DNA from: Acholeplasmataceae bacterium
GTDB lineage: Bacteria; Bacillota_I; Bacilli_A; ML615J-28; CAG-698
Assembly: GCA_012841865.1 (NCBI GenBank)
Contig: DUTX01000144.1
Span: 1 to 47,868 of the forward strand
Direction of reading: 5' to 3'
Length of the DNA stretch: 47,868 bases
Made by a program: the position numbers and the translations under genes. This document shows positions 1 through 47,200 of this stretch, piece after piece. Below the pieces are notes generated by a model. That model made no database searches, had not been told where the DNA came from, and saw nothing but the letters and a program-made list of their open reading frames with translations. How positions within the stretch are numbered: position 1 is the first letter of the stretch; every line of letters starts with the position of its first letter.

Positions 1-309
1 AATGTATTTTTTGACGGAGGTGTTGTTAATAATTTTCCAATTACGCTTTTTGCGAATGATGAAATTCCGACTTTAGGCTTTCGTTTAAGTAAAAGTCCTC
101 TGAAAACAAATAAATTATTTTTGAAATTCAAGAAAAAAGCTTTTAAACAAGATTGTGAATATAATTTTGAAAAATATAATATTATTGCTATCGATACATT
201 CGGAATTAAAGCGACAGAATTCGAAAAAGGACTTGAAAAAAGACTTGATCTTTATATTTCCGGGTACAATTCCATTAGGCAATATTTCTATAACAATTTT
301 AAATGTTAG
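1..309 (+). CDS. Patatin-like phospholipase, C-terminal fragment
   Basis: Only the last 102 codons are in the window; the frame is open from base 1. The fragment begins with a DGG-V-V-N-N-F-P-I stretch, the form taken by the block around the catalytic Asp (D-G-G/A) in bacterial patatin-like serine acyl hydrolases. It continues with a hydrophobic IIAIDTFGIKATEF segment, as often seen near the C-terminus of that family. The catalytic Ser (G-x-S-x-G) would lie upstream of the window. It probably hydrolyses acyl esters of membrane lipids, but the substrate cannot be told. The assignment rests on one motif and its spacing, so it is likely rather than certain. Confidence 0.65.
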   Translation, partial: NVFFDGGVVNNFPITLFANDEIPTLGFRLSKSPLKTNKLFLKFKKKAFKQDCEYNFEKYNIIAIDTFGIKATEFEKGLEKRLDLYISGYNSIRQYFYNNFKC

Positions 310-353: not shown

Positions 354-397
354 AATCATATATAATCACAGGAAATGTGGTGAGATCGGTGAAAAAT

Positions 398-3300
398 ATG
401 AACAAGGAAGAGAAATTAAAAATAGCTGAAATGAAAAACAATCAAGACACAACATCTGAAAACATAGAAAAAAAACAAATTATGTCTAAGAAAAGAAGTT
501 CCAAAAAGATGAATACGAAGGATATTTTGGAAGCTTTACAGAAGAAAAAAGTTGTAAATCTTGTAGAAGAAGATGAGGAAATGGAAGAAGAAATCATCGA
601 AGAAGAAACAAAGAAAAAGGGAAAAGAAGAAAACACCTATCCGCGTTTTTATGACACCGATGTTTTGATCGGTTTAACTTCAGAAATTGTTGAACAGCGG
701 AAAGCCGATAATTTAGTAAATGTTGTTGGTGATGAAAAAGGGAAAACGGTTATGGGAATTATTTTTTCCAATTTCTTCACCTTTTTCAACATATTATATT
801 TTGTTATTACCATTCTTTTTATTCTTTTGAAAAGCTTTGAAAACCTCATGTTTTTAATAACAATTATTCCGAATCTAATTATCGGTATTATTCAAGAAAT
901 TAAAGCGAAGAAAACAATGGAGAAGCTTTCTTTAATGACTTCGCCTACGACAACAGTAATCAGAGACGGAGAAAAACTTGAGATACCTGTTTCTGAAGTT
1001 GTTCTTGATGACATTATTTTCTTTACGTCTGGGAAGCAAATCTGTGCTGACAGTGTTGTTGTAGAAGGGTTTATTGAAGTTAACGAAGCTCTTTTAACGG
1101 GAGAAGCTGATGCAATTTTAAAAAACCCGGGCGACTTGCTTTTATCCGGAAGTTTTGTTGTTTCCGGAATGGCCGTTGCCAGAGTTGATAAAGTCGGAAA
1201 AGATAATTATATTGAAAAACTTTCCAAGGACGCAAAAATGTACCAAAAACCGAAGTCAGAAATTTTGCGTTCATTAAACGGAATTATTAAATTTGTTTCT
1301 TTAATCATTATTCCGCTTGCGGTATTGACTTATATCACTTCTTCCAACAATGCAGTTAAAGACTATTTTGGAATTTTGAATAAACAAGGGATTATCAAGG
1401 CCGCAAGCACAATGCTTGCAATGATCCCAGCGGGTCTGTTTTTACTTACAACTATGGCCCTTGCTGTTAGTGTCATCCGTCTTGCTCGCAGCAAAACTCT
1501 TGTTCAAGAACTTTATTGTATCGAAATGTTAGCCCGGGTAAATGTCCTATGTTTAGATAAGACCGGAACAATAACCGACGGCACGATGCGGGTTACAGAT
1601 TGTATTGAAATCAGGAATCCTACCGATTATACAATTCGAGAAATTGTCGGTTCAATGATGCAAGCTTTTGATGATGCCAACCCGACTGCCGAAGCTTTGA
1701 TTAATTATTTTGATAAGAACACTGTTTTAACGGCAACAGAGAAGATTCCTTTTTCCTCAAAAAGAAAATTCAGCGCCGTAACCTTTGGAGATGTCGGCAC
1801 TTTTGTTTTAGGCGCACCGGAATTCGTTTTAACTTCCGGTTATGATCGTGTATCCGCAAAAGTAGACCGTTATGCTGCTCAAGGAAGCCGGGTTTTAGTT
1901 CTTGGCCAAACCAAGAGCAAAATTAAACCTGACGAAGCTCCTAAAGCAGTTACGCCGATTTGTTTAATCATTATTCAAGATCATATCCGTGAAGATGCAA
2001 TTGAAACCATTGATTACTTCAAACAAAACGGTGTTGATATTAAAGTTATATCCGGAGATAATCCTGTCACGGTTTCAGAGATTGCTCAAAGAGCAGGAAT
2101 CGAAGGTGCGGAAAGATATATCAGTTTGGCGGGCTTAACCGATGATGAGGTTCGCGATTCTGTCTTTGAATACAATGTATTCGGACGTGTCTCTCCCGAT
2201 CAAAAAAGAATACTTGTTAAGGCTTTGAAAGAACATAAGAAGACAGTTGCGATGACTGGAGACGGAGTAAATGATATTCTTGCTTTAAAAGAGGCAGACT
2301 GCAGTATCGCCATGGCTTCCGGAAGCGAAGCAGCGCGTTATGTATCGCATCTGGTCTTAATGGATTCGAATTTTTCTTCAATGCCGAAAGTAGTCCAGGA
2401 AGGCAGACGCGTCATCAATAATATCCAAAAAACATCGACGCTCTATCTGGTCAAGACTTTTTTCTCAATAATTTTAACGATTATGTACATCATCCTGGGA
2501 ATGCAAGAAGGTCCAATCAGAATGTCCTATCCTTTCAGTGCCAAGAATCTTTATTTAATCGAATGGTTTGCAATCGGCATTCCTTCCTTCTTCTTGGCTC
2601 TTCAACCCAACAGAGCGATTGTACAAGGGAAATTTTTACCGAATGTAATAAAATCCGTTGTTCCTGGAGCTTTAACGGTTGTACTATTACATTTATTATT
2701 GAACTTTATCAGAATTATGCCTGGCTTTGAAAATCTTCATGCCAATGATGCCGTCTTTACAACCATTCTAACAATTGTTACTACGGCAGTTATGATATTG
2801 GTTCTTTACCAATCCTCACAGCCGTTTAATTGGCTCCGAAAATCTATTTTTGGTTTGATGATTATATTCTCTGTTCTAGTCGGAACAAACACCGTTCCGA
2901 TTACAAATATGGAATTATCCTTCCGGCATGGAATTGAAGATTATGATTATATTTTGGTTGTTGATGAAGACAAAGAATGGGCTTTAAACGGTATTAATAC
3001 GAATATTGATGCAGTTAAACGTCCGAACATCATAAACGCAGAAGATAGATATGTTGCTCCGGTAATAACCTATAATGAGAAAAAAATCTGGTGTTTGGAC
3101 GGAATCGCAACAGATATCTCCGTTTACCAAGGTGAATTCTTTGAACTAAGAGTTGTTGACGGTTATTGGTCGCTAAATGGTAGACAAACTAAGGCCAAAG
3201 CCTATCAGCAACCGCGAATCGAGTATCAAGCCCCGGATGAATATAAGCGACCTGCCCTTACAATCTACAAAGGTGTTTGGCGTTTAGACGGTATTTCGAC

Positions 3301-3805
3301 CGGAATTGCAGCCAGCGGTTTTGAGAATGAACTTATTTTAAATATCAACAATGGTTATTGGTATATTAATGGTAAAGATACCAATATTAAAGCAAGAGAG
3401 AAAATCAGTGATGAAGAATATGCTATTCCGGTAGTTTCAATTGTTTCTGTCGAGGGAAATCGCGTTTATGCCTTGGATGATGTCGCCACCGATATTTCTG
3501 CCGACTTAGACGGTACAGTTCATTTGGAAATAAGCGAAAACGGCTTTTGGTTGCTTAACGGTTACGAAACCGAAATTAAAGCTGAGAAGAACGGTGAAAA
3601 AATCATTAATGACGGTTACTTGCTTCCTATTGTTGATATTGACGGTTCTGGCTACTTTACAATTAACAATATCCGGACCAATATCAAAGCAGAGAACAAT
3701 TTAATGATTACCGAAATCTTGATTACTTTCCTTCTTGTACAATTAATTCTTCCGCTGATGTATTTGATTTCGCGGATTATGAAAAGACTAAGACTGATAA
3801 GTTGA
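398..3805 (+). CDS. P-type cation-transporting ATPase with extracellular repeat domain
   Basis: A full P-type ATPase of the CtpE-like HAD-IC group. TGEA is at about residue 234, the phosphorylated Asp is in DKTGT (about 387), followed by a KR nucleotide-binding segment and GDGVND (about 621). The M4 motif reads MIPAGL. About 80 N-terminal residues are cytoplasmic and rich in Lys and Glu. Six helices (M5-M10) follow the catalytic domains. Between M9 and M10, on the outer face by helix count, are about 245 extra residues (854-1099) holding eight W-x-L-N-G-x-x-T-x-I-x-A repeats. CtpE itself has been linked to calcium; the ion here is unknown. Start: ATG 398 follows GGTGA; GTG 377 or 380 are alternatives with AGGA upstream. 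The gene is monocistronic, with its own promoter and terminator. Confidence 0.9.
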   Translation: MNKEEKLKIAEMKNNQDTTSENIEKKQIMSKKRSSKKMNTKDILEALQKKKVVNLVEEDEEMEEEIIEEETKKKGKEENTYPRFYDTDVLIGLTSEIVEQRKADNLVNVVGDEKGKTVMGIIFSNFFTFFNILYFVITILFILLKSFENLMFLITIIPNLIIGIIQEIKAKKTMEKLSLMTSPTTTVIRDGEKLEIPVSEVVLDDIIFFTSGKQICADSVVVEGFIEVNEALLTGEADAILKNPGDLLLSGSFVVSGMAVARVDKVGKDNYIEKLSKDAKMYQKPKSEILRSLNGIIKFVSLIIIPLAVLTYITSSNNAVKDYFGILNKQGIIKAASTMLAMIPAGLFLLTTMALAVSVIRLARSKTLVQELYCIEMLARVNVLCLDKTGTITDGTMRVTDCIEIRNPTDYTIREIVGSMMQAFDDANPTAEALINYFDKNTVLTATEKIPFSSKRKFSAVTFGDVGTFVLGAPEFVLTSGYDRVSAKVDRYAAQGSRVLVLGQTKSKIKPDEAPKAVTPICLIIIQDHIREDAIETIDYFKQNGVDIKVISGDNPVTVSEIAQRAGIEGAERYISLAGLTDDEVRDSVFEYNVFGRVSPDQKRILVKALKEHKKTVAMTGDGVNDILALKEADCSIAMASGSEAARYVSHLVLMDSNFSSMPKVVQEGRRVINNIQKTSTLYLVKTFFSIILTIMYIILGMQEGPIRMSYPFSAKNLYLIEWFAIGIPSFFLALQPNRAIVQGKFLPNVIKSVVPGALTVVLLHLLLNFIRIMPGFENLHANDAVFTTILTIVTTAVMILVLYQSSQPFNWLRKSIFGLMIIFSVLVGTNTVPITNMELSFRHGIEDYDYILVVDEDKEWALNGINTNIDAVKRPNIINAEDRYVAPVITYNEKKIWCLDGIATDISVYQGEFFELRVVDGYWSLNGRQTKAKAYQQPRIEYQAPDEYKRPALTIYKGVWRLDGISTGIAASGFENELILNINNGYWYINGKDTNIKAREKISDEEYAIPVVSIVSVEGNRVYALDDVATDISADLDGTVHLEISENGFWLLNGYETEIKAEKNGEKIINDGYLLPIVDIDGSGYFTINNIRTNIKAENNLMITEILITFLLVQLILPLMYLISRIMKRLRLIS
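2957..3694 (+). repeat. Eight-copy protein repeat encoded in the ATPase C-terminus
   Basis: Eight degenerate units of about 22-38 residues share the core aromatic-x-L/I-N/D-G/N-x-x-T-x-I-x-A. Examples are WALNGINTNIDA, WSLNGRQTKAKA, WRLDGISTGIAA, WYINGKDTNIKA and WLLNGYETEIKA. They alternate in type: copies 3, 5 and 7 begin with G-Y/F-W, and most even copies follow a Pro and a short beta-like stretch. This suggests four two-unit modules of about 60 residues. The core recalls the W-(I/V)-G-x-T-D-T-G repeats in surface proteins of gut bacteria, but the match is from memory. Confidence 0.8.
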
Positions 3806-3948: not shown

Positions 3949-4230
3949 ATGACAAAATACACAGCTATGTTTATTATCCGCCCAACCTTAGCCGAGGAAG
4001 GCTTTAAGGAGATTATTGCTGATATTTTCAAAATCTTTACAGATCATGAAAGCAATGTTTTGGAAGTAAAAGAATGGGGTATGAAGGATTTGGCATACGA
4101 AATCGAAGATTTCAAAAAAGGCTATTATGTGCTTTTAAAAGTTGAAGCCAATTCCGAAGCAGTAGCGGAATATAACCGTGTATGTAATATCAGTGAAGAT
4201 ATTATTAGATATATTATAGTGAAAGATTGA
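3949..4230 (+). CDS. rpsF: 30S ribosomal protein S6
   Basis: 93 residues, the usual length for S6. It starts TKYTAMFIIRPTL and carries the family's MKDLAYEIEDFKKGYYVLLKV core. S6 binds S18 on the platform of the small subunit, and the gene order rpsF-ssb-rpsR is the standard bacterial one. The start at 3949 follows a near-perfect AAGGAGGTG site. Its stop lies 8 nt before the ssb start. Confidence 0.97.
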   Translation: MTKYTAMFIIRPTLAEEGFKEIIADIFKIFTDHESNVLEVKEWGMKDLAYEIEDFKKGYYVLLKVEANSEAVAEYNRVCNISEDIIRYIIVKD

Positions 4231-4238
4231 GAGAAAGT

Positions 4239-4700
4239 ATGAATAGAGTAATTTTAGTGGGCCGTCTTACAAAAGACCCCGAACTTAGACATACTAATAA
4301 TGACATTCCCGTCGCTCAATTTACCGTCGCAGTAAACAGACCTTATCAAGGCAGGTCCGGAGAAAGACAAGCCGATTTCATTAACTGTGTCGCTTGGCGA
4401 AATCAGGCCGAAAATTTAGCGCGGTATATGCGGAAAGGAAGTTTAATTGGGGTGGAAGGATCAATCCAAAGCAGAAGTTATGATGACGCAAATGGCATGC
4501 GGCGTTACGTTACCGAGGTTGTTTGTGACAGCATCCACTTCCTAGAACCCAAATCCGCAAGACAGGATTACAATACTTATCCTGACTTCAATCAATATGA
4601 TGCTCCTTCCTATAATCAAAAACCCCAAGAAGAACACAAAGATCCGTTTGAGAACATTAGTACACAATTTGATGTTTCAAACGATGATTTACCATTTTAA
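4239..4700 (+). CDS. ssb: Single-stranded DNA-binding protein
   Basis: 153 residues. The N-terminal OB fold begins [17 protein letters not shown] and contains [29 protein letters not shown] flexible Gln/Asn/Pro-rich linker leads to the acidic tip DVSNDDLPF, the conserved tail that recruits replication and repair partners. ATG 4239 matches the family start; an upstream in-frame TTG at 4227 overlaps the rpsF stop and would add four residues. The ribosome binding site is a weak GAGAAAG, so translation may be coupled to rpsF. Confidence 0.96.
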
Positions 4701-5065: not shown

Positions 5066-5087
5066 AAGAAATGCAAAGGTGAAAATT

Positions 5088-7520
5088 ATGAAAAACAAGT
5101 TCACATTTCAACATTTTATCATTATTTTAGCTTTTATCTCCTGTTTTTTTGGAGTCTATTCTTTTCTTAATGCCAAAATGCCAGATTTAATTAGATATAT
5201 CGCTATTGCGATATTTTCAATCTGCGTCACCTATTTGTATATGATAAAAATCGGCAATCACAATCAAAAAAGGCTGGAGTGGCTTGAAGGACGGCTTAAA
5301 CTATGGAATTCAATTTCTTACCGGGTAAAAAAAGCCGGCGAGACCTCCTTCACAAAGCTTCCAATTGGCATCATTGTTTATAATGAAAACCATATTATCG
5401 AATGGGCAAATAATTATGCTAAGGAAATTTTTATGAGCCCACTCATTGAAAGAAAAATTGAACTTCTGAGTTCCGATTTATATACAAAAATTAAACTACT
5501 CACTGAATTTGACACTACAATTTACGGAAGAACTTATAAATGTCAGGTTTTCCCGCAGGACAATATTATCTATTTAATTGATAAGACTGAAAGCACGGAA
5601 ATTGAAAAGAAATATCGTTCCCGAATGCTGGCTTTAGGTATTTTAAGTTTAGACAATCTTGATCAAGCTTTAAGTTCTCTTGATCCTCAGGAAAGAGCAT
5701 CGCAGATCAGTAATATTATCGGTATTCTCAGCGAATGGGCAGAAAGGAAACAAATAAACTTACGAGGTTACAGCGAAGCGCAATACCTTTTGATCATGGA
5801 CCATTCACAACTTCAAATTTTAATGAAAGACAGTTTTACCATTCTTGAAGAAGTCAAGAATTATTGTGTCAAAGAAGGTTTGAGAATTACTGCTTCAATC
5901 GGAATTGCCTGCGAAGATGTTCCTGCCGATCAGCTATTTGAACTGACAGAGCAGCAACTGGAAATGGCCGTTAACCGCGGCGGTAATCAATGTGCGGTTT
6001 CGATTGATGGCAATATTACTTACTATGGTGCGAAGACAACTTCAATCGAAACTCGTTCGCCGGTATTTGTTCGTGTAAAAGCCGAGACTTTAGCAGAAAT
6101 GATCACGAATGCTTCAAAAGTTTATATTATGTCACACAATGACATGGATTCGGATTCTTTCGGTTCCTGTCTTGCTGCCTGTAAGTTAGCGAGCGCTTTA
6201 AATAAGGAAGCAAAGATTATTTTTGATCCGGATTCGATTGACGATACAATTGCCAATATCTACAAAATAATCCAACAAGAATATGTCACAATTCTAGATT
6301 ACTTGCTTCATCCTCGTGAAGCCTTAAACAAAATTGATGATGATACCTTGTTGATTATCGTTGACACACAGTATCAACATTTATTAATAAATGAAAAAGT
6401 TTTTAAGAAAGCCAAGAAAATCGCTGTCATTGACCACCATCGTCGGAATAATGATGCGATTAAAAATTATCAATTTCTATACACTCAATCATCATCTTCT
6501 TCGACCGTAGAATTGATTGTCGAGATGTTTCAATTTTTAGACGTAGATATTGATATTACGCCGATTGAAGCCACATGGATGTTGATGGGTGTGATTGTTG
6601 ATACCAACAATTTAATGTATCGGGTTTCATATCGAACATTTAATGTCTTATCTGTACTCCAGAAATATGGTGCGGAGATGCCGAAGGTTCAAAGGTTCTT
6701 GCGAGAAAACTTTGATGAATATGTAAAACGAATGACGATTCTTAACAACCTAGAAATTATTGACAATAACTATGGCATCGCTCTTTGCAGTGATGATATC
6801 TATCCCAGGGCTTTTCTGGCAAAGATTGCTGATAATATCATTTCCGTAAACAATATTAAAGCGGCGTTTTCAATCGGGCGTATTGACGAGAACGAAATCG
6901 GCATCAGTGCCCGAAGCCTTGATGAAGTTAATGTACAAGTTTTGATGGAAGAATTTGGTGGTGGGGGGCATTTCAATAATGCTGCTGCCCAAATCAAAGA
7001 TACGACAATCGAAGATGTAAGGTTGAGTTTGATTGAAAAATTAAAGAAAATTGATGACGGGAGGATGGGAACAATGAAGATAATTCTAACGAAGGATATA
7101 AAAGGAAAAGGACAAAAGGGAGATATCATCGATATCCCGGCTGGCCACGCAAATTTTCTGTTGCGAAGCGATCAAGCGATACTCGCGACAGCGGAAAATA
7201 TTAAACAACTCGAAAACAAGAAACTGGAAGAAAAAGCTGCCGATGAGCGTTTGCGGAATGAAATGCTTGACTTAAAAGATTTTATTGAAAAGAATCCGAT
7301 TAAAATTGGCGTTCGCGTCGGCAAAGAAGGTAAACTTTTCGGTAGCGTCAGCAGTAAGCAGATTATTGAGGAATTTAAAAATGCTTACGGAATCATGCTT
7401 GATAAAAGAAAGATGTTACATGATAAAGACATCGATGCTTTAGGATCTTATGAAATACCGATTCAACTTCATAAAGATGTAACAGCACAAATCAAATTAC
7501 ATGTTGTGGAGAAGCAATGA
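5088..7520 (+). CDS. gdpP: GdpP-type c-di-AMP phosphodiesterase fused to ribosomal protein L9
   Basis: An 810-residue open frame joins two proteins that are normally separate. Residues 1-662 match GdpP (659 residues in B. subtilis): two N-terminal helices, a PAS-like region, a degenerate GGDEF domain (about 170-310), then DHH/DHHA1. Visible catalytic motifs are N-D-M-D-S-D (about 351-356), IVDTQ, the DHH at 449-451 and GGGGHFNNAA near 625. GdpP degrades cyclic di-AMP at the membrane. Residues 663-810 are a complete L9. No stop codon separates them; the junction is DGRMGT. The start at 5088 follows AAGGTG; GTG 5079 lies inside that site. The stop overlaps the dnaB start (ATGA). Confidence 0.92.
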   Translation: MKNKFTFQHFIIILAFISCFFGVYSFLNAKMPDLIRYIAIAIFSICVTYLYMIKIGNHNQKRLEWLEGRLKLWNSISYRVKKAGETSFTKLPIGIIVYNENHIIEWANNYAKEIFMSPLIERKIELLSSDLYTKIKLLTEFDTTIYGRTYKCQVFPQDNIIYLIDKTESTEIEKKYRSRMLALGILSLDNLDQALSSLDPQERASQISNIIGILSEWAERKQINLRGYSEAQYLLIMDHSQLQILMKDSFTILEEVKNYCVKEGLRITASIGIACEDVPADQLFELTEQQLEMAVNRGGNQCAVSIDGNITYYGAKTTSIETRSPVFVRVKAETLAEMITNASKVYIMSHNDMDSDSFGSCLAACKLASALNKEAKIIFDPDSIDDTIANIYKIIQQEYVTILDYLLHPREALNKIDDDTLLIIVDTQYQHLLINEKVFKKAKKIAVIDHHRRNNDAIKNYQFLYTQSSSSSTVELIVEMFQFLDVDIDITPIEATWMLMGVIVDTNNLMYRVSYRTFNVLSVLQKYGAEMPKVQRFLRENFDEYVKRMTILNNLEIIDNNYGIALCSDDIYPRAFLAKIADNIISVNNIKAAFSIGRIDENEIGISARSLDEVNVQVLMEEFGGGGHFNNAAAQIKDTTIEDVRLSLIEKLKKIDDGRMGTMKIILTKDIKGKGQKGDIIDIPAGHANFLLRSDQAILATAENIKQLENKKLEEKAADERLRNEMLDLKDFIEKNPIKIGVRVGKEGKLFGSVSSKQIIEEFKNAYGIMLDKRKMLHDKDIDALGSYEIPIQLHKDVTAQIKLHVVEKQ
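7074..7520 (+). CDS. rplI: 50S ribosomal protein L9, internal start within the gdpP fusion
   Basis: 148 residues beginning MKIILTKDIKGKGQKGDIIDIPAGHANFLL, the standard L9 N-terminal domain, and ending with the C-terminal lobe (IKLHVVE). The length equals that of free L9. The internal ATG at 7074 has a strong GGGAGG (7059-7064) nine bases upstream, inside the gdpP reading frame. L9 is needed in ribosomal amounts while GdpP is a scarce membrane enzyme, so free L9 from this internal site is likely in addition to, or instead of, the fused form. This is inferred from sequence only. Confidence 0.75.
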   Translation: MKIILTKDIKGKGQKGDIIDIPAGHANFLLRSDQAILATAENIKQLENKKLEEKAADERLRNEMLDLKDFIEKNPIKIGVRVGKEGKLFGSVSSKQIIEEFKNAYGIMLDKRKMLHDKDIDALGSYEIPIQLHKDVTAQIKLHVVEKQ

Positions 7521-13298: not shown

Positions 13299-13321
13299 AA
13301 TGGAAAAAACCGCCAATAATA
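13293..13321 (+). promoter_or_regulatory. Possible sigma-F-type promoter of spoIIR
   Basis: GAATA (13293-13297), a 14-nt spacer and GCCAATAATA (13312-13321). This approaches the sigma-F pattern (GYATA, GGNNANAHTR) and closely resembles the spoIIQ candidate at 21426. The -10 lies in the left arm and loop of the hairpin at 13307-13334. The call is by pattern only. Confidence 0.4.
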
Positions 13322-13338
13322 AAATTGGTGGTTTTTTT
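13307..13338 (+). terminator. Terminator overlapping the spoIIR ribosome binding site
   Basis: An 11-bp stem AAACCGCCAAT/ATTGGTGGTTT (one wobble pair), loop AATAAA, then seven T directly before the spoIIR ATG. It should stop transcripts coming from tsaC. Its right arm contains GGTGG, the only candidate ribosome binding site of spoIIR. Confidence 0.8.
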
Positions 13339-13824
13339 ATGAAGAGGAAGGCTTTTATTATCATCCTTATCATTATTTTAATAATCTTCTTTTTTCCCCA
13401 AGAAAGCAAAGAATTTCGAATCAGGGTCGTTGCAGCAAGCGATTCGGTTGCGGATCAAAGCGAAAAACACGCTGTTGTTCGGGTAATAAAAGAAGAATTA
13501 AAGAAATATAATCAAGATGATATCATAAATGAAATAAATAAAAATATAGATTTATTGGAAGCTAAGATTGCGAAAGTTCTTCGGGAACGCAAATTTCAAA
13601 TCAGCATTACCAAACAAAACTACCCGACGAAAGAATGGGAGGGTAAAGTTATTTCCGGAGGAAGATATAAAACATTATTGGTTGTAATTGAAAAAGGCGA
13701 GGGTAAAAACTGGTGGAGCATATTGTATCCTGCTTATCATAATATTTCTTTTGAAGATGGTGGGGCCGATATTGAGTTTGAATTTTATTTTTTTGAAAAG
13801 CTTCGAAAAATCTTTTCCAAATAG
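13339..13824 (+). CDS. spoIIR: Stage II sporulation protein R
   Basis: 161 residues. An N-terminal hydrophobic segment is followed by FRIRVVAASDS (R-I-L-A-N-S-D-S in B. subtilis), a YPTKEWEGKVISGGRYKTLLV block and GEGKNWWSILYP, the family hallmark G-E-G-x-N-W-W. In B. subtilis the forespore secretes SpoIIR to trigger SpoIIGA processing of pro-sigma-E. The start is taken as ATG 13339, right after the T run. An in-frame ATG at 13300 would translate the terminator and has no ribosome binding site. The gene lies next to tsaC, as in B. subtilis. Confidence 0.92.
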   Translation: MKRKAFIIILIIILIIFFFPQESKEFRIRVVAASDSVADQSEKHAVVRVIKEELKKYNQDDIINEINKNIDLLEAKIAKVLRERKFQISITKQNYPTKEWEGKVISGGRYKTLLVVIEKGEGKNWWSILYPAYHNISFEDGGADIEFEFYFFEKLRKIFSK

Positions 13825-15083: not shown

Positions 15084-16088
15084 TTGAAATATGTCTCGCT
15101 AATTGGTGCCGACAGAAAATTCCTCCATAAAATAAAACCCTTTTTAATTTCAAAAAAAAGAAAAATTCGCTATATGATGATAAACACCGTCAATTATGAG
15201 CGGCTGCGGAATTCCGAAGCCGTTTTTCTTGACAGCAGACTAACCTTTAAACTAAAAGAAGAATTAGTAATATTTTGCTTAGAAAATTCAATAGAACTTT
15301 TCTTCATTCCTTCGGTTACTGAGATTGGAATCAAGAAAAGGGACTTTAATATCAATGACCTATTAATCAGAAAGTTAAGCAAGTTTCGCTTAAGTTTATT
15401 TCAAAGAATAATAAAAAGAATATTTGATCTAACTTTTTCAATTCTCTTTATTATTATTTTTTCGCCCTTGATGATTTTTATTTATTTTTTGATAAAGATT
15501 ATCGACGGAAGCCCGGCGGTTTATATGCAAAAGCGTTTAACATATCGGGGCAAAGAATTTGTATTATACAAATTTAGAACGATGGTGCTTAATGCGGAAA
15601 GTGAATCGGGAGCGGTGCTTTCAGTTGAAAATGATGATAGAATTACGAAAACAGGCAAAATTTTAAGAAAAACCCGTTTGGACGAAATCCTGCAGATCTT
15701 TAATGTCCTCAGCGGAGATATGTCGGTAGTTGGTCCGCGTCCGGAAAGAAAATTTTTCGTTGAAAAATTTCAAAAAGAAAATCCTTTTTATAAATATCGA
15801 TTCCAAGTAAAAGCGGGCATTACCGGTCTTGCTCAAATCAATTGTTATTATCGTTCCGCATATGAAGATAAACTCTATTTTGACTTGCTCTATATTGCCA
15901 ATTACAGCTTATGGAATGATTTTAAATTGATCTTAAAAACATTATTTATCTTCTTCAAAAAGAACTCTGCTCGAGGAATAAATAACGAAGATTTGGAAAC
16001 ATTTTTAGAAAGAAGAGGAAAAAGAATGGTTGAAGTTGAGACGGGAATTTTTGAATTGAGGGATATAGATGAAAAAAGTACTTATTAA
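15084..16088 (+). CDS. Bacterial sugar transferase (polyprenyl-phosphate sugar-1-phosphate transferase)
   Basis: 334 residues. A short N-terminal region is followed by one strongly hydrophobic segment (about 117-140) and a C-terminal catalytic domain with LYKFRTM, TRLDEILQIFNVLSGDMSVVGPRPE and GITGLAQ, all hallmarks of the WbaP/PglC-type superfamily. Such enzymes load a sugar-1-phosphate onto undecaprenyl phosphate and begin surface polysaccharide synthesis. The start is TTG 15084, with AAAAGGGGTG upstream. It is the first gene of a five-gene operon and overlaps the next gene by 20 nt. Confidence 0.92.
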   Translation: MKYVSLIGADRKFLHKIKPFLISKKRKIRYMMINTVNYERLRNSEAVFLDSRLTFKLKEELVIFCLENSIELFFIPSVTEIGIKKRDFNINDLLIRKLSKFRLSLFQRIIKRIFDLTFSILFIIIFSPLMIFIYFLIKIIDGSPAVYMQKRLTYRGKEFVLYKFRTMVLNAESESGAVLSVENDDRITKTGKILRKTRLDEILQIFNVLSGDMSVVGPRPERKFFVEKFQKENPFYKYRFQVKAGITGLAQINCYYRSAYEDKLYFDLLYIANYSLWNDFKLILKTLFIFFKKNSARGINNEDLETFLERRGKRMVEVETGIFELRDIDEKSTY

Positions 16089-17151
16089 TTGTAATGATTG
16101 TTTTTCCGCTTACAATTTTCGTATTGGTTTAATCAAGGAACTTGAAAAATCTTATGAAGTTTATGTAGTTGCGGGTTTTGATAAATACTTGCCTTTATTA
16201 CATCAAGAAAATGTTAAAGTAATTCCAATAAATTCTTCTTTTACAGGTTTAGGGATAAGAGAAAATTTAAGACAACTTCGGGAATATAGACGTATTTTTA
16301 AGATGATTGAACCGGATTTAATTTTGAATTATACAATTAAACCCCATCTTTTTGGAACTTTAATGGCACCGAAAAAAACAAAAGTAATCAATTTTGTAAC
16401 CGGAGTCGGTTCAGTCTTTGAAAAGCGTAATCTGCTTTTTAAAATTATTTGTTTTTTATATCGCTTTACCTCCAGAAAAGTAGACCATTATATCTTCTTA
16501 AACAAAGACGATTATTATTTGTTTGCTGAATTGGAGATCTTAAGGCAACCACACACGATTTTATTGGGTGAGGGAATAGATCCGGAAAAGTTTTATCCCT
16601 ATGTAGATTTTAAAAAGCCACTCAGTTTTATCTATATTGGTAGACTTTTAGAGGAAAAAGGAGTTAGGGAGTATCTGGAAGCAGCAAGGATTATTAAAAG
16701 ACGGTTTCCGGAAGTGAATTTTTTGATTGCCGGCGATTTTTACCAGAAGAAATCATCTTTAAATAGAAATGAGATTTTCCGTTATGAAAAAGAGGGGATT
16801 GTAAAATACTTGGGTCATCGCTTTGATGTAAATGTTTTGCTGCGCGATGTCCATGTTGTTGTTCTTCCTTCCTACCGCGAAGGCATGCCTTTTTCCTTAA
16901 TGGAAGGTCTTGCTTCGAAAAAATTTTTGATTGCCAGCGCTGTTCCTGGTTGTCGTGATGTAGTTATTGATGGTTATAATGGTTTTCTTGTTCGTCCGAA
17001 AAGCAGTTATGATTTAATTTTAAAAATAGAAAAATACATAAAATCAGAAAACAAAGAAGAGCTCCATAATAATGCCTATGCTTCTTCTTCAAAATTTGAC
17101 CAAAAGAAAATAATACCGGAGATTGTCGGATTAATCGGGGAAATAATATGA
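16069..17151 (+). CDS. GT4-family glycosyltransferase
   Basis: 360 residues, GT-B fold. LNYTIKPHLFGTLMAPKKTKVINFVTGVGS is typical of PglA-like transferases that add a HexNAc or hexose to the lipid-linked first sugar. The C-terminal domain has FIYIGRLLEEKGVREYLEAA and the E-x7-E-type motif in SYREGMPFSLMEGLASKKFL. It probably adds the second sugar of the repeat unit; donor and acceptor cannot be read from the sequence. It overlaps genes on both sides. Confidence 0.88.
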   Translation: MKKVLINCNDCFSAYNFRIGLIKELEKSYEVYVVAGFDKYLPLLHQENVKVIPINSSFTGLGIRENLRQLREYRRIFKMIEPDLILNYTIKPHLFGTLMAPKKTKVINFVTGVGSVFEKRNLLFKIICFLYRFTSRKVDHYIFLNKDDYYLFAELEILRQPHTILLGEGIDPEKFYPYVDFKKPLSFIYIGRLLEEKGVREYLEAARIIKRRFPEVNFLIAGDFYQKKSSLNRNEIFRYEKEGIVKYLGHRFDVNVLLRDVHVVVLPSYREGMPFSLMEGLASKKFLIASAVPGCRDVVIDGYNGFLVRPKSSYDLILKIEKYIKSENKEELHNNAYASSSKFDQKKIIPEIVGLIGEII

Positions 17152-18209
17152 AAATAGCGATGGTAATAACATCTTTAGAAGTCGGAGGTGCAGAGAAACT
17201 GGTATTAGAATTAATTCAGGAGTTAAAAGATAAAGTAGAGATTCGCCTATATATTATAAAAAAAAATTATGACACCATCTATGATCAACAAATAGCAGAT
17301 TTAAACATTCAATATTTTTATTTAAATGGAAAAAGCCGTATTTTTAGTTTTAAAGCAGCAAAAAAAATAAGAAAACTCTTAGATGATTATAAACCTGATA
17401 TAATTCATACCCATTTGAAAGCCGCTGATTATATTTGTTATTACCGCTTAAAAAATAAAAGATTCCTTTGGGTCCATACGGTTCACACTTTAGCAACCGC
17501 AGATATGAAAAAACTCCGTCGTTTAATCTATCGTCCTTTCTATAAAAGAGGAATTATTCTTCCGGTTGCAGTTTCAAAAGAGGTCGAAGCAAGTCTGGTC
17601 CGGCTTTTTGATATAAAAGGAAAACTGATACCCAATGGAGTCGATTTGGAAAAGTTTAGATATATCCCCGATGAAAAACAAGAATTTGTAGTTCTTCATG
17701 TTGGCAGATTTATAGCATTAAAAAATCATAAATATTTAATCAATGAATTCGCAAAGTTTTCAAAAGAAAGAAAGAACACTAGTCTAATTTTGATTGGTAG
17801 CGGTCCTTTAAAAAAGAAAATAAAGAAACTTGCACGAAAACTTGAGCTCTCAAAACGGATTAAGTTTATTGAAAGCACTCCAAAGATTGAGCTCTTTATG
17901 CAGGAAGCCTCAGTTTTTGTTTTGCCTTCTAAATACGAAGGCATGTCCCTAGCTTTACTGGAAGCACTGGCAACCGGCTTATTGGTAATTACTAAGAGAG
18001 GCTTGAGTGATTTGATTGAACATGAAGTAAACGGTTTTGAAATTGATCTTGAGGAAAATGCTTTATTTTATGAATTAGAAAACCTTTATGAAAACTATCG
18101 CAGTTTTGAAATTGTCAGAAGAAATGCAACTAAATCAGTAAGCAAGCATTCAATACAGGCGGTTGCTGAGAATTACTTAAAATTATATGAAAGGATGCTC
18201 AATGATTAA
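17148..18209 (+). CDS. GT4-family glycosyltransferase
   Basis: 353 residues. The N-terminus carries the GT4 start VITSLEVGGAEKLVLEL, DIIHTHLKAADYI follows, and the C-terminal nucleotide-sugar domain has HVGRFIALKNHKYLINEF and SKYEGMSLALLEALATGLLVI (E-x7-E). It is closely related in layout to the next gene, suggesting an old duplication. It likely acts on a cytoplasmic lipid-linked glycan intermediate. It overlaps the previous gene by ATGA. Confidence 0.88.
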   Translation: MKIAMVITSLEVGGAEKLVLELIQELKDKVEIRLYIIKKNYDTIYDQQIADLNIQYFYLNGKSRIFSFKAAKKIRKLLDDYKPDIIHTHLKAADYICYYRLKNKRFLWVHTVHTLATADMKKLRRLIYRPFYKRGIILPVAVSKEVEASLVRLFDIKGKLIPNGVDLEKFRYIPDEKQEFVVLHVGRFIALKNHKYLINEFAKFSKERKNTSLILIGSGPLKKKIKKLARKLELSKRIKFIESTPKIELFMQEASVFVLPSKYEGMSLALLEALATGLLVITKRGLSDLIEHEVNGFEIDLEENALFYELENLYENYRSFEIVRRNATKSVSKHSIQAVAENYLKLYERMLND

Positions 18210-19290
18210 ACTCGCCGTTTCGATAGGCACTTTAGAAGTCGGAGGCGCAGAAACCTTTGTAATTAATCTTTTGAAAAATCTCGATTATCAAAGTTTCGAG
18301 GTAATTTTAATCGTGTTAGAGAAAAAAAGAGGAAGTTTTTTAGAAAGAGAAGTTGAAAAACTTCCGCTTGAAGTTAAATATATTTCAAAAAAGGAAGGGT
18401 TTAGACCAAGTGCGGTTATAAAAGTTTGGTCAGTTTTAAAAAGATTTAAGCCGGACTTACTTCACGGTAATATCGGCGGCTTAATATATTTTCTTCCCTA
18501 TCTCTTCTTTCACAGAATTAAGCTTATTTATACAGCTCATACTTTAGCTGATAAAGAATTCGGTTCTTTTAAAAGGTATTTGATTAACATACTTTTAAAA
18601 AAAGGAAAAATTACTGCTGTTGGAATTAGCCCGGAAATCAGAAAAAGCCTTGCAACCACTTATAAATATAATATCAACAAAATTCCTTTGATCTATAACG
18701 GAATAGACGTAAATAGTTTTTCGGATCAAAAAGATTTCTCGAAAAAGATATCCCTCGGTCATGTCGGCCGATTTGAAGAGGTTAAAAACCATCGCACGAT
18801 AATTGAGGTTTTTTTTAATTTAAAAAAGCTGAATCCGAATTTAACCTTAAGGCTTGTTGGGGAGGGGAGCCTTTTCTTAAATTATCGAAATGAGTTTAAG
18901 CATAATGAAGGAATAATTTTTGTTGGAAAAAGTGAGAAGGTTCAAGAAGAATTGAAGAAAATCCATCTTTTTTTAATTCCTTCTTTTTATGAAGGGTTAC
19001 CACTTGCGGTCTTGGAGGCGATGGCTTCGGGTTGTGTGATTGTCGGCAGCAATGTTGGTGGTTTAAAGGACTTAATTGAAGAAGGAAAAAATGGTTACTT
19101 ACTTAATGAGCCCGGGGATGTGGATGGTTTTTCAAAAGTAATTGAAGGGTTGTTGAAAGATCGGAATTTAATGTCAGCAATCTCTTTAAATAATATTAAG
19201 AAAGCTCAAAACTTCGATATTATAGAAACAGCAAAAAGATATCAAAAATTATACTTATTGGAGGCAAAGAATGTTAAGCGGGGAATATAA
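18202..19290 (+). CDS. GT4-family glycosyltransferase
   Basis: 362 residues. It begins MIKLAVSIGTLEVGGAETFVINLL, the same GT4 opening as the gene upstream, and contains GHVGRFEEVKNHRTIIEVF and SFYEGLPLAVLEAMASGCVIVGSNVGGLKDLIEEGKNG, a clear UDP-sugar-binding and E-x7-E region. ATG 18202 is chosen because AAAGGATG lies just upstream and the overlap with the previous gene is then 8 nt. A TTG at 18187 would add five residues. The sugar specificity is unknown. Confidence 0.88.
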   Translation: MIKLAVSIGTLEVGGAETFVINLLKNLDYQSFEVILIVLEKKRGSFLEREVEKLPLEVKYISKKEGFRPSAVIKVWSVLKRFKPDLLHGNIGGLIYFLPYLFFHRIKLIYTAHTLADKEFGSFKRYLINILLKKGKITAVGISPEIRKSLATTYKYNINKIPLIYNGIDVNSFSDQKDFSKKISLGHVGRFEEVKNHRTIIEVFFNLKKLNPNLTLRLVGEGSLFLNYRNEFKHNEGIIFVGKSEKVQEELKKIHLFLIPSFYEGLPLAVLEAMASGCVIVGSNVGGLKDLIEEGKNGYLLNEPGDVDGFSKVIEGLLKDRNLMSAISLNNIKKAQNFDIIETAKRYQKLYLLEAKNVKRGI

Positions 19291-20647
19291 TTTTTTGGTT
19301 GATAATCTGTGGTTAACGCAAATGATTGCAGTAGTCCTGTTGATAATTCCGTTCTTTTTGATATTTGCGGATAAGAAATGGATTTTTGGATTTTATGTGG
19401 TCTCAATCGTTGCGAACTTGCCGCTTATTTTTGTTATGGCCTTTGGTTTTTCATATGAATTGATAATTGCTCTGGCAACGATTATAGTTATCTGCAAAGA
19501 TTTACTGCGAAATAAGAACTTGCTTCTCCTTTCTACAAAAGAAAGCCGCGCCGTTATAATAGCGCTTTTCGGTGTTCTGGCTTTAAATCTCTTGACCTCA
19601 TTCGCAAATTTTTCAAGAAATCATTTTTTTGAAAGATCTTTTATATATTTGGTGAATATCTTTGTTTTGTTGGTGTTTAGTTACTTTTTAGTCAATCGCG
19701 AAAGACTTCAAGTCATCCGTTATGCTTTTGTAATCGGTGCCTTAATCCTTGTCTTTACGATGTTAGTTGAATTGGTATACGGGTATTATTATCTGGGGGT
19801 GTATCGTCTTCGCCCAGCGGGTTTATTGCTTGATCCGAATGTCGCTGCTTTTACATTAAATCTTTCTTTGTTGCTTTCTTTTTATAGACCAAAAAAAACA
19901 AAATTATTAACGGATATATTTTTTATCTCGGCTCGGATCTTAATTATTTTCGGAATCTTTTTAACTGTTTCTCGTTCAGGTTATCTTTCAACTCTCTTGA
20001 TTTTAGCACTATTTTTGGTTTACTATTCAAAAGGGAAAAAACGTTATCTGGCTCCGACGACTGTTTTTGTCATTATCCTAATTTATTTTCTCTTCTTTAA
20101 TTTCATTCAGGCCTCACTTGACACAGTTTACCGAATGATTGATTTACAAAGAATTTTTCCTCGCTCTGTTCCGCCCGCAGTTCCCGGACCGACGCCCGCT
20201 CCCAGTATTTCGATTCCGGAGACAATTTTTTCTGATTCCAGATTTGAACTGTTAAAAGCAGGGATTAAAGTTTTTCTAAATAATTATATCCTTGGTGTCG
20301 GAATCGGAAATATTACCGGTGAGATTTATAATCTGACGGGAATGCCGATGAATACGCATAATTTGGTTTTACAGCTATTGGGTGAGTCGGGAATTTTTAT
20401 GCTTGGAACGCTACTGATTTTCTTCTATTACCTGGTACAGTTGATTGTAAAATCGGAAAAAAAACAAAAATTCTTTCTCTCTTTAATATTTTTGGTTATT
20501 GTGCTTGAATCATTTTTTAATCATAACCTTTTAAATGTAAATATTATTTATCTTATGCTTGCTTTCTTTTTAGCTTTAAACATCTTATTTTCAAGAGAAC
20601 AAACCGTTCTTAGTTTAGCAAAAATCATTAACAAGAAGAAGAGATAA
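19271..20647 (+). CDS. O-antigen ligase/polymerase-family membrane protein
   Basis: 458 residues with about a dozen hydrophobic helices. It contains RPAGLLLDPNVAAFTLNLSL, the large Pro-rich external loop (PPAVPGPTPAPSIS) and GVGIGNITG...NTHNLVLQLLGESG, the N-T-H-N-x-x-L motif of the PF04932-type Wzy/WaaL superfamily. It most likely joins the glycan units made by the genes upstream; polymerase and ligase cannot be told apart by sequence. It is the last gene of the operon. No Wzx flippase or chain-length regulator is in the window. Confidence 0.85.
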   Translation: MLSGEYNFLVDNLWLTQMIAVVLLIIPFFLIFADKKWIFGFYVVSIVANLPLIFVMAFGFSYELIIALATIIVICKDLLRNKNLLLLSTKESRAVIIALFGVLALNLLTSFANFSRNHFFERSFIYLVNIFVLLVFSYFLVNRERLQVIRYAFVIGALILVFTMLVELVYGYYYLGVYRLRPAGLLLDPNVAAFTLNLSLLLSFYRPKKTKLLTDIFFISARILIIFGIFLTVSRSGYLSTLLILALFLVYYSKGKKRYLAPTTVFVIILIYFLFFNFIQASLDTVYRMIDLQRIFPRSVPPAVPGPTPAPSISIPETIFSDSRFELLKAGIKVFLNNYILGVGIGNITGEIYNLTGMPMNTHNLVLQLLGESGIFMLGTLLIFFYYLVQLIVKSEKKQKFFLSLIFLVIVLESFFNHNLLNVNIIYLMLAFFLALNILFSREQTVLSLAKIINKKKR

Positions 20648-29195: not shown

Positions 29196-29236
29196 ATTAT
29201 TGTTCTAATGAGTACAACAGTTAAGGAGTGAAAATT

Positions 29237-31957
29237 ATGAATGGTTCTCAAGTAGTAAAAAGGACATTGCCGTTGATTATTGTTTTGTTGATAATAATCG
29301 GAATTGCTATTTCCTGTACGGTATTAAATAAAGATAAAGCTGTTCCGGCAATTACCAATCCTGAATCATTGTATTTTGAGGTTGGAGAAGGCGATAGAAA
29401 ATTTTCAATGACAAATGAAGATATCTATACGCAGCTGAAAAATAGCTACGGCTTATCTATGTTAATCGAAATGATCGATATCGATCTCTTAAAGTCCGGA
29501 GAAACCGATTATTATAATGCTGTAACCAATGAAGAAATTGAAGAAGCTATCGAAAAGGATAAATTTCCGGAAAACAGATATCCGAAAGGAAAAGATGCGC
29601 TTACGGAAGATGAAATCGAAGAAGCAGTAAAAACCTTCAACGACAATATGCTTGTAAATAACGGACTTAAAGACGTAGAAGAGATCACAGCCTTTTATCG
29701 CTTGAAGCTGGCCAGAAAGAAATATGCTATTGCACAATTGGAAAAGAAGATTCAAGAAGCTGATCAATTAGCAAAAGAAGATAAAAGCAAAGAGCCTTAT
29801 TTTACCGAAAAGGAATATGAAACACAATATAAAGCCGATTATCAAAACGGTTATTGGGCAATTATCGTTCCTTTCCGTTCGGAAGAAGAAGGCTATACAC
29901 TCTTAAGGCAACTCGGTATTACCGTTCATAAAAAAGACACTTCCGTTTCCGGTGACTTTACGAAATGGGTCAGAACAGAAGATGAAGAGGAAGTTGCGCT
30001 TACGACTGCCGAAGTTGTACAAGCATTCATCGATATGTATAATGCCGTTCATGCTCATAAACTTGAAAACTATCCTAATGAGACAGTGACAGTTTTTGAA
30101 GACATTCAATATGAAAAAGACGAAGAAGGCAAATACATTTTTAAAACCGATGTTGCTTCAGAAGATGATGAGGAAAGACTGAATGAATTCTATTATACAT
30201 ACAAAGAAATTGTTGAGTATAATTCTTCCATTCAAAATTACCTGAAAGTCTCGATGAAAAATTATGTCAATTATGAAAAAGAAGAGATTACTTCTGATCA
30301 AAAATTCTTCACTCCGGAATTAAAATCTTATGCAAACAATAAATTATTTGTTTTCATGTTGAAAATCAGTGAAGAAGTCGCTCCCGACCTTGATGAAGTC
30401 CGCGACGAAGTTTATCAGACCCTCTTTGAAAAAGAATTGACTGAGAATTTCATTCAAGAGCAGATTGTAAAACTTCGTGAAGAGAAAGGTTTCCAGATTT
30501 TTGACGCAAGTTTAGAAAAGAGATATATTGCAAGCATCTCATCTTATGATGTCGAACATAAGAATACTAAAGCTGAAAGCAAAACCATGGTCGCTAAGGT
30601 CGGAGATACTGAATATTCTGCCGATGAACTCTTCGACTATATGGACAAACGTTACGGAATAGGCGTTGCCCTGAATAGAATAAATTATTTCCGTTTACTA
30701 AACAATCCCGAACTGAATCAAATTTTTGATTACTACCAAACAGATCTTAAAGAAAGAGACAGAATTCTTGATCCGGAAAGATGGCAGGAAGTTAAAACTT
30801 CAATCAGAAATATTCGCGATAATTTCTTGAGGAATTACTTTGCGAGTGCAGGTTATCCGGCAACATATGGGTGGCGTAATTTCATCAAAGACTATTTCGG
30901 TGTTCAAGATGAAAATGAATTAAAATTCTATGTATTGCATAGCGAAATTGTTTCTGATTTTGCTGAAAAATTGAGTTCTGTTGAAGATTTGGAAGAAGAT
31001 TCGGAATTGTGGATACTGTATGAAGAGAAGATGCAAGAAATTGTTGATGATTTCTTCTCATCTAAAGGCGTTCATCTCTTGATTTCTGTTAATGATGATT
31101 CCGGAACTCCGATTCATCCTGATGAGTGGACATTATATCAAAAAGAACTCGCTATGGAATTGTTTAATGAAATTTGGAAATATTATGAATCAGAAGGTGA
31201 AACTGTTACCAGTAGATTACAAAAACTAGCTGATCTATTCCTCGAAGCTCCGCGTTTCTTGGCTGATAGAGGTCAAAACGTTGAAGAGCAACCGGAAGGC
31301 TTTGACTATACGCTTGAAACAAATTATTATAAATTTGAATTTGCGAAGTATAAATCAGCAGGGCTAGTTCTGAAATTTGAGGATTTAGGCGAAGGCAGCC
31401 CCGGAAAATATGTTGAGCCGTTTGAAGAAGCGCTCAGAGAAATCTGGAAAGCTAATCCTACTTCCGAGGAGCCGACTCCGTATAAGGATGCAGAAACCGA
31501 TGAATACAAACCGATTATTACTGAATTTGGTTATCATGCATACGTTAACTTAAGTTCAACGGATATCCCCAAATGGTATTATTCTTCTGATGAGGACCAA
31601 GAAGAACCGGGAATCATCCCGACTTTACAAATGGTCAAAACTTATCTTAAGGATAGCGAAAGCTCCTACTTATTTGACGGAACAGAAGATGAAGAAGATA
31701 GCGAAGATGAAAATAACGAAGATAAAGAAAAATTTACCAGCGCTATGAAAACTGCCGTCGAGACTTATTTCAACCCAGTATTTGAAGAAATTTCCGGTTC
31801 TTTTAATGTTACAATTAAACTATATGAAGAATTAAAAGGTTTAGATTTTACATTTAACTCTAAGAACTATACCGAGGCTCAATTTAAGGATTATGTTCAA
31901 GGAAGAATCGATTCTTATCAGTCTAATTTGAAATATTTTGGTGTTGAAGAAGAATAA
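29237..31957 (+). CDS. Large SurA/PrsA-like lipoprotein, double chaperone architecture
   Basis: 906 residues. A signal segment ends in AISC (Cys27), a likely lipidation site. The rest reads as two tandem SurA/PrsA-type modules. Module 1: YFEVGEGDRKFSMTNEDIYTQL then a helical arm, a parvulin-like YWAIIVPFRSEEEGYTLLRQLG, and a long C-terminal helix. Module 2 begins VAKVGDTEYSADELFDYMDKRYG and ends in a recognisable parvulin core: GVHLLISV, GLVLKFEDLG, VEPFEEALREIW and ITEFGYHAYVNL, with a long insertion. Such proteins fold exported proteins outside the membrane. The parvulin parts are divergent, so isomerase activity is uncertain. ATG 29237 has AAGGAG 8 nt upstream. Its paralog starts at 32824. 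Confidence 0.75.
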   Translation: MNGSQVVKRTLPLIIVLLIIIGIAISCTVLNKDKAVPAITNPESLYFEVGEGDRKFSMTNEDIYTQLKNSYGLSMLIEMIDIDLLKSGETDYYNAVTNEEIEEAIEKDKFPENRYPKGKDALTEDEIEEAVKTFNDNMLVNNGLKDVEEITAFYRLKLARKKYAIAQLEKKIQEADQLAKEDKSKEPYFTEKEYETQYKADYQNGYWAIIVPFRSEEEGYTLLRQLGITVHKKDTSVSGDFTKWVRTEDEEEVALTTAEVVQAFIDMYNAVHAHKLENYPNETVTVFEDIQYEKDEEGKYIFKTDVASEDDEERLNEFYYTYKEIVEYNSSIQNYLKVSMKNYVNYEKEEITSDQKFFTPELKSYANNKLFVFMLKISEEVAPDLDEVRDEVYQTLFEKELTENFIQEQIVKLREEKGFQIFDASLEKRYIASISSYDVEHKNTKAESKTMVAKVGDTEYSADELFDYMDKRYGIGVALNRINYFRLLNNPELNQIFDYYQTDLKERDRILDPERWQEVKTSIRNIRDNFLRNYFASAGYPATYGWRNFIKDYFGVQDENELKFYVLHSEIVSDFAEKLSSVEDLEEDSELWILYEEKMQEIVDDFFSSKGVHLLISVNDDSGTPIHPDEWTLYQKELAMELFNEIWKYYESEGETVTSRLQKLADLFLEAPRFLADRGQNVEEQPEGFDYTLETNYYKFEFAKYKSAGLVLKFEDLGEGSPGKYVEPFEEALREIWKANPTSEEPTPYKDAETDEYKPIITEFGYHAYVNLSSTDIPKWYYSSDEDQEEPGIIPTLQMVKTYLKDSESSYLFDGTEDEEDSEDENNEDKEKFTSAMKTAVETYFNPVFEEISGSFNVTIKLYEELKGLDFTFNSKNYTEAQFKDYVQGRIDSYQSNLKYFGVEEE

Positions 31958-46147: not shown

Positions 46148-47200
46148 ATGAATCTAGAGAAATTTCAAATTCGGACCGATTTGGCTTTTGAAGCCTTGGA
46201 TTTGAGAAAAACCACGTATTTGGAAGAAGTCGTTAATGAAGAATTCGAACAGGATAATCTTGTGATCAAAAGAACGGTGATTTCCGAAAATGTAGGAAGA
46301 GAAATCGGAAAGAAACCCGGATTATACTATGTCCTGGATACGAAAGCAATCAAAACTCATGACAATGACGATTTGAAAAAGTGTGAAAACGCACTGACTC
46401 AAATAATCAAAGAAGTACTGAGGGCGGAGAATATCACAGAAAAAAGCAGAGGGCTGGTTGTGGGACTCGGAAATATAAACGTAACCCCCGACTCCCTAGG
46501 GCCTGTTGTGATTGACAATGTTATTGTAACGAGACATATGTTTTTACTTAATCCCGAAGAGGTTTCTGAAGGAATCAGCGATGTCAGCGCGATTGCTCCC
46601 GGAGTTATGGGAAATACCGGTATCGAAACTTATGATATTATTGAAGCAGTTGTTAATAAGATTCAGGTTGATTATTTGCTGGTTGTTGATGCTCTTGCAT
46701 CTAGGTCGCTTGCCAGAGTTAACAAGACGATTCAGGTAACAAATACTGGGATTTCTCCGGGTTCCGGAGTCGGAAACTCAAGAAAAGAAATAAGCAAAGA
46801 AACAATGAAGATCCCCGTTATCGCCATCGGTGTTCCTACTGTCGTTGATGCAGCCACGATTGCGAGTGACACAATCGATATGTTATTGCGTTATTTCAAT
46901 CATAAAATTGAACATCACGATCGACCAAGCCAAAGCATCATTGTTGGTCCAGAAAAAATAGATTTTGATGAAGCAGAGCTTCCGGACGAACAATATCGTA
47001 AAGAATTTTTGGGAGAATTCGGACGCTTAAGTGAAGAAGAAAAGTTTCAACTCTTGGAGGAGGTACTTACCCCGAACGGCTATAATATGATGGTTACCCC
47101 TAAGGAAGTGGATATTGATATTGAAGACCTTTCCGAAGTAATCAGCGGTGCAATCGATAGAGCCTTACATACTATTGTCGATAATGGAATAATAACATAA
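46148..47200 (+). CDS. gpr: Germination protease GPR
   Basis: 350 residues, close to the B. subtilis length. The N-terminus NLEKFQIRTDLAFEA includes the region removed on zymogen activation. LVVGLGNINVTPDSLGPVV and YLLVVDALASRSLARVNKTIQ carry the conserved Asp residues of this aspartic-like protease family, followed by SPGSGVGNSRKEIS and GVPTVVDAATI. GPR degrades small acid-soluble spore proteins during germination. GAGGTG precedes the ATG. The rpsT-gpr neighbourhood is conserved in Bacilli. Confidence 0.96.
   Translation: MNLEKFQIRTDLAFEALDLRKTTYLEEVVNEEFEQDNLVIKRTVISENVGREIGKKPGLYYVLDTKAIKTHDNDDLKKCENALTQIIKEVLRAENITEKSRGLVVGLGNINVTPDSLGPVVIDNVIVTRHMFLLNPEEVSEGISDVSAIAPGVMGNTGIETYDIIEAVVNKIQVDYLLVVDALASRSLARVNKTIQVTNTGISPGSGVGNSRKEISKETMKIPVIAIGVPTVVDAATIASDTIDMLLRYFNHKIEHHDRPSQSIIVGPEKIDFDEAELPDEQYRKEFLGEFGRLSEEEKFQLLEEVLTPNGYNMMVTPKEVDIDIEDLSEVISGAIDRALHTIVDNGIIT

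Follow-up and report, generated by a model that had tools for sequence, protein, structure and literature searches.

The analysed stretch, called the window here, comprises 47,868 nucleotides of contig DUTX01000144.1 from an Acholeplasmataceae bacterium (assembly GCA_012841865.1). Near its start lies a gene for a P-type ATPase that carries a long repeat-bearing insert between its last two membrane helices, M9 and M10. The features of this locus are as follows:

1..309, + strand: 3' end of a probable patatin-like gene, the upstream neighbour (named from sequence)
398..3805, + strand: CtpE-like (P6-like) P-type ATPase of 1135 aa with a predicted M9-M10 ectodomain
1097..1108, + strand: TGEA motif of the actuator domain, residues 234-237, cytoplasmic
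1427..1438, + strand: PAGL motif in M4, residues 344-347
1556..1570, + strand: DKTGT phosphorylation motif, residues 387-391
2258..2275, + strand: GDGVND hinge motif, residues 621-626
2831..2905, + strand: M9 helix region, residues 812-836 (hydropathy, structure model)
2906..3697, + strand: insert, residues 837-1100, predicted to be extracytoplasmic and all-beta, with eight repeats as four double units
2978..3016, + strand: repeat 1 core, WALNGINTNIDAV
3089..3127, + strand: repeat 2 core, WCLDGIATDISVY
3167..3205, + strand: repeat 3 core, WSLNGRQTKAKAY
3278..3316, + strand: repeat 4 core, WRLDGISTGIAAS
3359..3397, + strand: repeat 5 core, WYINGKDTNIKAR
3467..3505, + strand: repeat 6 core, YALDDVATDISAD
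3548..3586, + strand: repeat 7 core, WLLNGYETEIKAE
3656..3694, + strand: repeat 8 core, FTINNIRTNIKAE
3698..3775, + strand: M10 helix region, residues 1101-1126, followed by the basic C-terminus RIMKRLRLIS (hydropathy, charge)
3949..4230, + strand: rpsF (ribosomal protein S6), downstream neighbour (synteny)
4227..4700, + strand: ssb, downstream neighbour (named by sequence; position conserved in relatives)

The pump frame is open from 377 to 3805, and translation from the ATG at 398 gave 1135 residues without a stop. The catalytic motifs TGEA (residue 234), DKTGT (387) and GDGVND (621) follow in that order, and hydropathy analysis located ten membrane segments, with M9 at about 812-836 and M10 at about 1101-1126. 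The initial annotation had proposed a complete CtpE-like pump from these three motifs, and the motifs and helices bear this out. Pfam searches matched E1-E2_ATPase (1.2e-40) and Hydrolase (2.5e-23), and the general P-type model of NCBIfam, TIGR01494, scored 223.5 bits against a cut-off of 62.3, while the pump fell below every cut-off of the specific NCBIfam pump families among the matches listed. The protein encoded at 398-3805 belongs to the P-type ATPase superfamily. The closest solved structures by sequence were the Listeria calcium pump lmo0841 and fungal proton pumps (best E about 3e-51), which share the general P-type architecture; the similarity is limited to the core, and the insert has no counterpart in them.

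CtpE of Mycobacterium represents the functionally uncharacterised P-type ATPase family 23, the proposed family P6. The window pump resembles it in the P-type catalytic motifs, the ten predicted helices and the cytoplasmic loops after M2 and M4. In M. smegmatis, CtpE is reported to be 791 residues long, to read VPEGL in M4 and to take up calcium (PMC5615198); in M6, CtpE has an isoleucine where calcium efflux pumps carry aspartate (PMC10654040). By motif, M6 of the window pump (EWFAIGIP) has an isoleucine as in CtpE, and a simple pattern found IG in 63 of 95 orthologues. The window pump differs from CtpE in that it reads IPAGL rather than PEGL in M4, and its 1135 residues and 264-residue M9-M10 loop depart from the usual length and short loop of CtpE. 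Because PEGL is missing, we refer to the protein as CtpE-like and do not file it as a P6 member. The M4 glutamate is replaced by alanine, and calcium is therefore not assumed to be the ion of this pump. M4 of the orthologues in the class was IPSGL in 38, IPAGL in 30 and IPEGL in 13, and this predominance of IPSGL and IPAGL raises doubt about calcium as the transported ion.

We then compared the M9-M10 stretch, which is about 264 residues long in the window pump and roughly 10-35 residues in most orthologues. It contains eight units of the form W/Y/F-x-L/I-N/D-G/N-x-x-T-x-I/A-x-A/V, starting at residues 861, 898, 924, 961, 988, 1024, 1051 and 1087. The spacing alternates (37/26/37/27/36/27/36 residues), indicating that the natural unit of the insert is a double repeat of about 63 residues. 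A regular expression of the motif matched eight times in the loop and at most once in any of 20,000 loop shuffles; since the expression was fitted after the sequence had been seen, conservation is the stronger evidence for the repeats. All eight units are kept in six of the six carriers in the window's family (f1), which span four genera, with 43 invariant columns and 32-62% identity to the window. The eight alternating units and the roughly 245 extra residues described at the outset thus agree with the positions, the 37/27 spacing, the shuffles and the measured loop.

The placement of the insert outside the cytoplasmic membrane is strongly implied by helix count, by charge and by the secreted setting of similar repeats. 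The catalytic domains in the M2-M3 and M4-M5 loops must be cytoplasmic, so that M8-M9 lies inside and M9-M10 outside. With 26 K/R against 44 D/E, the insert is acidic. The cytoplasmic ends on either side of it are basic, and the tail behind M10 holds four basic residues without any acidic one; this pattern fits an outward placement. Net charge was negative in 13 of 13 inserts counted (-10 to -32). The outward orientation that the initial annotation had derived from helix count is therefore in agreement with the charge of both the insert and the C-terminal tail. A model of the full-length pump (three sequences) reached a mean pLDDT of 36.5 and gives no topology information, so the topology is taken from helix count, from charge and from the kind of proteins in which such repeats are found.

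The structure prediction that had been suggested for this region was made for residues 800-1135. In this model (two sequences, pLDDT 70), two helices flank a regular series of short beta strands, and such a fold of the insert is strongly implied by the prediction. A Foldseek search of the predicted insert, itself a moderate-confidence model, against PDB and the viral structures of BFVD returned nothing at E <= 0.001, and a sequence search against PDB chains gave no match. Pfam gave only sub-threshold matches to CBM_26, DUF4988 and YabP. These searches gave no support for assigning the insert to a known domain. DUF4988 (PF16378) and the W-x-I-N-G-x-x-T units of surface proteins are short repeats of similar look; DUF4988 matched weakly in three of six f1 inserts (best E 1.3e-6), and in the one member shown with its curated cut-off the score was 22.2 bits against 30. 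The W-x-I-N-G-x-x-T units elsewhere occur singly or in small numbers in secreted proteins, whereas here they are arrayed in a transporter.

To follow the distribution of the insert, we searched the genomes of family f1 and found a strong pump match in 25 of 28. An insert of 260-280 residues is present in three genomes of genus g1, namely G000 (the window's genome), G005 and G006, and in G026, G027 and G011, and the M9-M10 loop measures roughly 10-35 residues in 18 other f1 sequences that aligned through the region. Among the f1 carriers, the insert diverges faster than the core (33-61% against 58-87% identity). Units compared across genomes were 44% identical at the same position and 32% between different positions, indicating that the array predates the split of the f1 carrier genera and has not been homogenised.

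A class-wide pump search revealed over-long pumps in family f21, with open frames of 1268-1384 residues and inserts of 350-470 residues in the same loop as in f1. Their repeats are degenerate yet recognisable (for example GNYIIDGYYTEFKS and GYLTINDFKTDYKA), and Pfam found nothing in these inserts. Profile-profile comparison of the f1 and f21 inserts gave a probability of 95.7% and an E of 8.4e-9 over 212 columns, a value that refers to a single comparison and that repeats can inflate; a profile built from one repeat failed to detect the f21 insert (probability 0.7%). Inserts of the f21 genera g218 and g219 matched the f1 profile with E 9.5e-10 and 3e-8 (nominal 1000 sequences) and by eye look nearer the f1 type. 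From the whole-domain comparison and these intermediate matches, the f21 insert appears to be remotely related to that of f1. Across the order that holds f21, the f21 profile matched 48 of 150 genomes, every one in f21. In G037 (family f2), a loop of about 100 residues contains two units (E 4.2e-5, nominal 1000 sequences). The other 79 orthologues measured in this class-wide comparison have no such insert, and loops of roughly 35-55 residues in genus g17 did not match the insert profile. At class and phylum level the f1 insert profile returned f1 carriers only, although the f21 inserts lie beyond its reach, which makes absence from its matches weak evidence; a phylum-wide search with the whole pump found no further over-long pumps, with all matches coming from the window's own class. 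As for the initial question whether other P-type ATPases carry the repeat, those of the further f1 carriers, f21 and G037 do, and the claim that this loop is normally short holds for most orthologues measured.

A core tree (83 rows, quick method without bootstrap, genomes of the window's class only) grouped the f1 carriers in one clade and the f21 carriers in another, with insert-free lineages between them and G037 apart. The minimum was four changes, one of which is due to an incomplete row (G116), so that three were counted. At least three separate lineages therefore carry the insert, having either gained it more than once or lost it many times after a gain, and this tree cannot distinguish between the two.

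We also looked for the repeats in other proteins. In the window's order, weak matches (E 3.5e-6 to 9e-4) were found in a collagen-like membrane protein, lipoproteins and amidase-like proteins, each holding one or a few units; none of these surface-type proteins has the full eight-unit array. Read by eye, the repeat-bearing proteins of relatives show signal sequences or lipoprotein cysteines. The lipoproteins, the collagen-like protein and the amidases agree with the expectation that related W/G/T repeats occur in surface proteins, and we infer that these bacteria use the repeats generally as an extracytoplasmic module. In the window's genome, the pump was the sole repeat match at E <= 0.001, so a repeat-bearing partner is not seen there. 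As a separate observation, amidase-like proteins of related genomes (L043, L050, L053 and L056) have one or two W/Y-x-I-N-G-x-x-T units each, apparently placed inside the amidase domain, with Amidase_2 confirmed for L053 only.

We tentatively favour, as plausible though far from secure, the reading that the insert is a module for binding or anchoring outside the cytoplasm, seated on the support helices of the pump. Among the helices of P-type ATPases, M7-M10 shift the least, so an outer domain can be added there without blocking transport. The repeat module would be grafted onto these helices, the least mobile part in the transport cycle, and would lie outside the ion path, while the pump core would cycle like an ordinary P-type ATPase. 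The insert would hold the pump to, or recognise, something outside, which might be a non-peptidoglycan glycan, a protein of the cell surface or a second pump molecule of the same kind. Its fast divergence, with eight units nevertheless kept in four genera, is what a selected surface domain might show.

It is possible, but unlikely, that the insert acts on the pump itself, stabilising M9-M10, covering the outer mouth or concentrating cations like a built-in Na,K-ATPase beta subunit. Accessory subunits of eukaryotic pumps sit on the M9-M10 side, and the insert lies beside the same two helices, recurs at the identical loop of the same pump and is negatively charged in every case counted. The beta subunit of the Na,K- and H,K-ATPases likewise places an extracellular domain at the M7-M10 side; however, it is a separate one-helix protein, and its sequence does not match the insert, nor did our searches link the insert to any other chain of known structure. 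The 79 measured orthologues manage without the insert, no cation-binding motif was identified, and acidic surfaces are common outside cells; the acidity fits the gathering of cations and equally any extracellular domain. A broader version, that the P6-like pump lineage several times gained its own extracellular accessory domain regulating or feeding the pump, a one-chain counterpart of the alpha-beta sodium pump, seems decidedly improbable.

A role as passenger, in which M9-M10 is a tolerant site and surface-protein repeat DNA is carried there with little specific function, is also unlikely, a little more so than an action on the pump. Such a role would suit the patchy distribution, the size range from two units to about 470 residues and the faster divergence of the insert. 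However, exactly eight units persist across the four genera even where identity falls to 32%, together with the 43 invariant columns, and the higher identity of same-position units (44% against 32%) argues that the array is kept in register.

The initial annotation had suggested coupling to a wall ligand, which in its simple form means that the insert binds peptidoglycan and ties the pump to the cell wall. Similar repeats in Amidase_2-type proteins speak for this, as does the window's genome, which has wall-synthesis genes: transpeptidase, MurG and FtsW/RodA are all present in the insert carriers G000, G027 and G282. In contrast, the carriers G026 (94% complete) and G182 (99% complete) gave no match to any of the three, and FtsW/RodA had no match in another three genomes of genus g118 (G241, G270 and G335). 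Incomplete genomes could miss genes, but the loss of all three from both G026 and G182 in this way is implausible. Judged by gene absence in draft genomes, the insert is not confined to organisms with peptidoglycan synthesis genes, so a peptidoglycan ligand is unlikely as a general explanation, and we regard this part of the annotation as highly improbable. Absence of peptidoglycan markers is scattered (G012, G014, G026, G182, G241, G270 and G335), and other f1 and f21 members keep them.

Few transporters have been studied as well as the P-type ATPases, and those of prokaryotes are usually regarded as bare pumps with short outer loops. Here, predicted outer domains of 260-470 residues occupy one and the same loop in three or more separate lineages, whether or not peptidoglycan is apparent, and pumps with 0, 2, 8 and more units form a natural series in which the effect of an outer domain on a pump can be studied. 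The window pump is also a clean further example of the CtpE group, about which little is known and in which ion specificity becomes uncertain once the M4 glutamate is lost. Our search of open-licence PubMed Central papers found no description of such a pump domain.

In family f1, rpsF and ssb lie next to the pump whether or not the insert is present, and the gene upstream is frequently conserved too, so the window pump evidently sits at the true orthologous locus. Although the window's genome is in 189 contigs with 5.6% estimated contamination, an assembly or binning artefact or a chimeric gene model can be dismissed with near certainty, since the frame is single and continuous, the patatin-ATPase-rpsF-ssb synteny is shared, and identical architecture occurs in six f1 genomes and in the separate record L035 (DGED01000017, Bacillales bacterium UBA3935, probably the same genome as G027). 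An apparent frameshift in the L035/G027 pump was rejected, since the break there consists of N letters marking a gap in the assembly and not of a mutation.

Several other features of the window were recorded. No RNA families or tRNAs were found in it. At 5079-7520, a GdpP-like c-di-AMP phosphodiesterase and ribosomal protein L9 form one 813-residue frame, which is also open in G008 (L069:6377-8812) and aligns over its full length in L035. Two frames of 909 and 821 residues (29228-31957 and 32824-35289) had no Pfam match at E <= 1e-6. The genome measures about 1.95 Mb, and the window holds two sporulation-related genes, one SpoIIR-like (13300-13824) and one for a germination protease (46148-47200). 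The cluster at 15084-20647 encodes a sugar transferase, three glycosyltransferases and a protein resembling O-antigen ligase, which suggests an exported polysaccharide.
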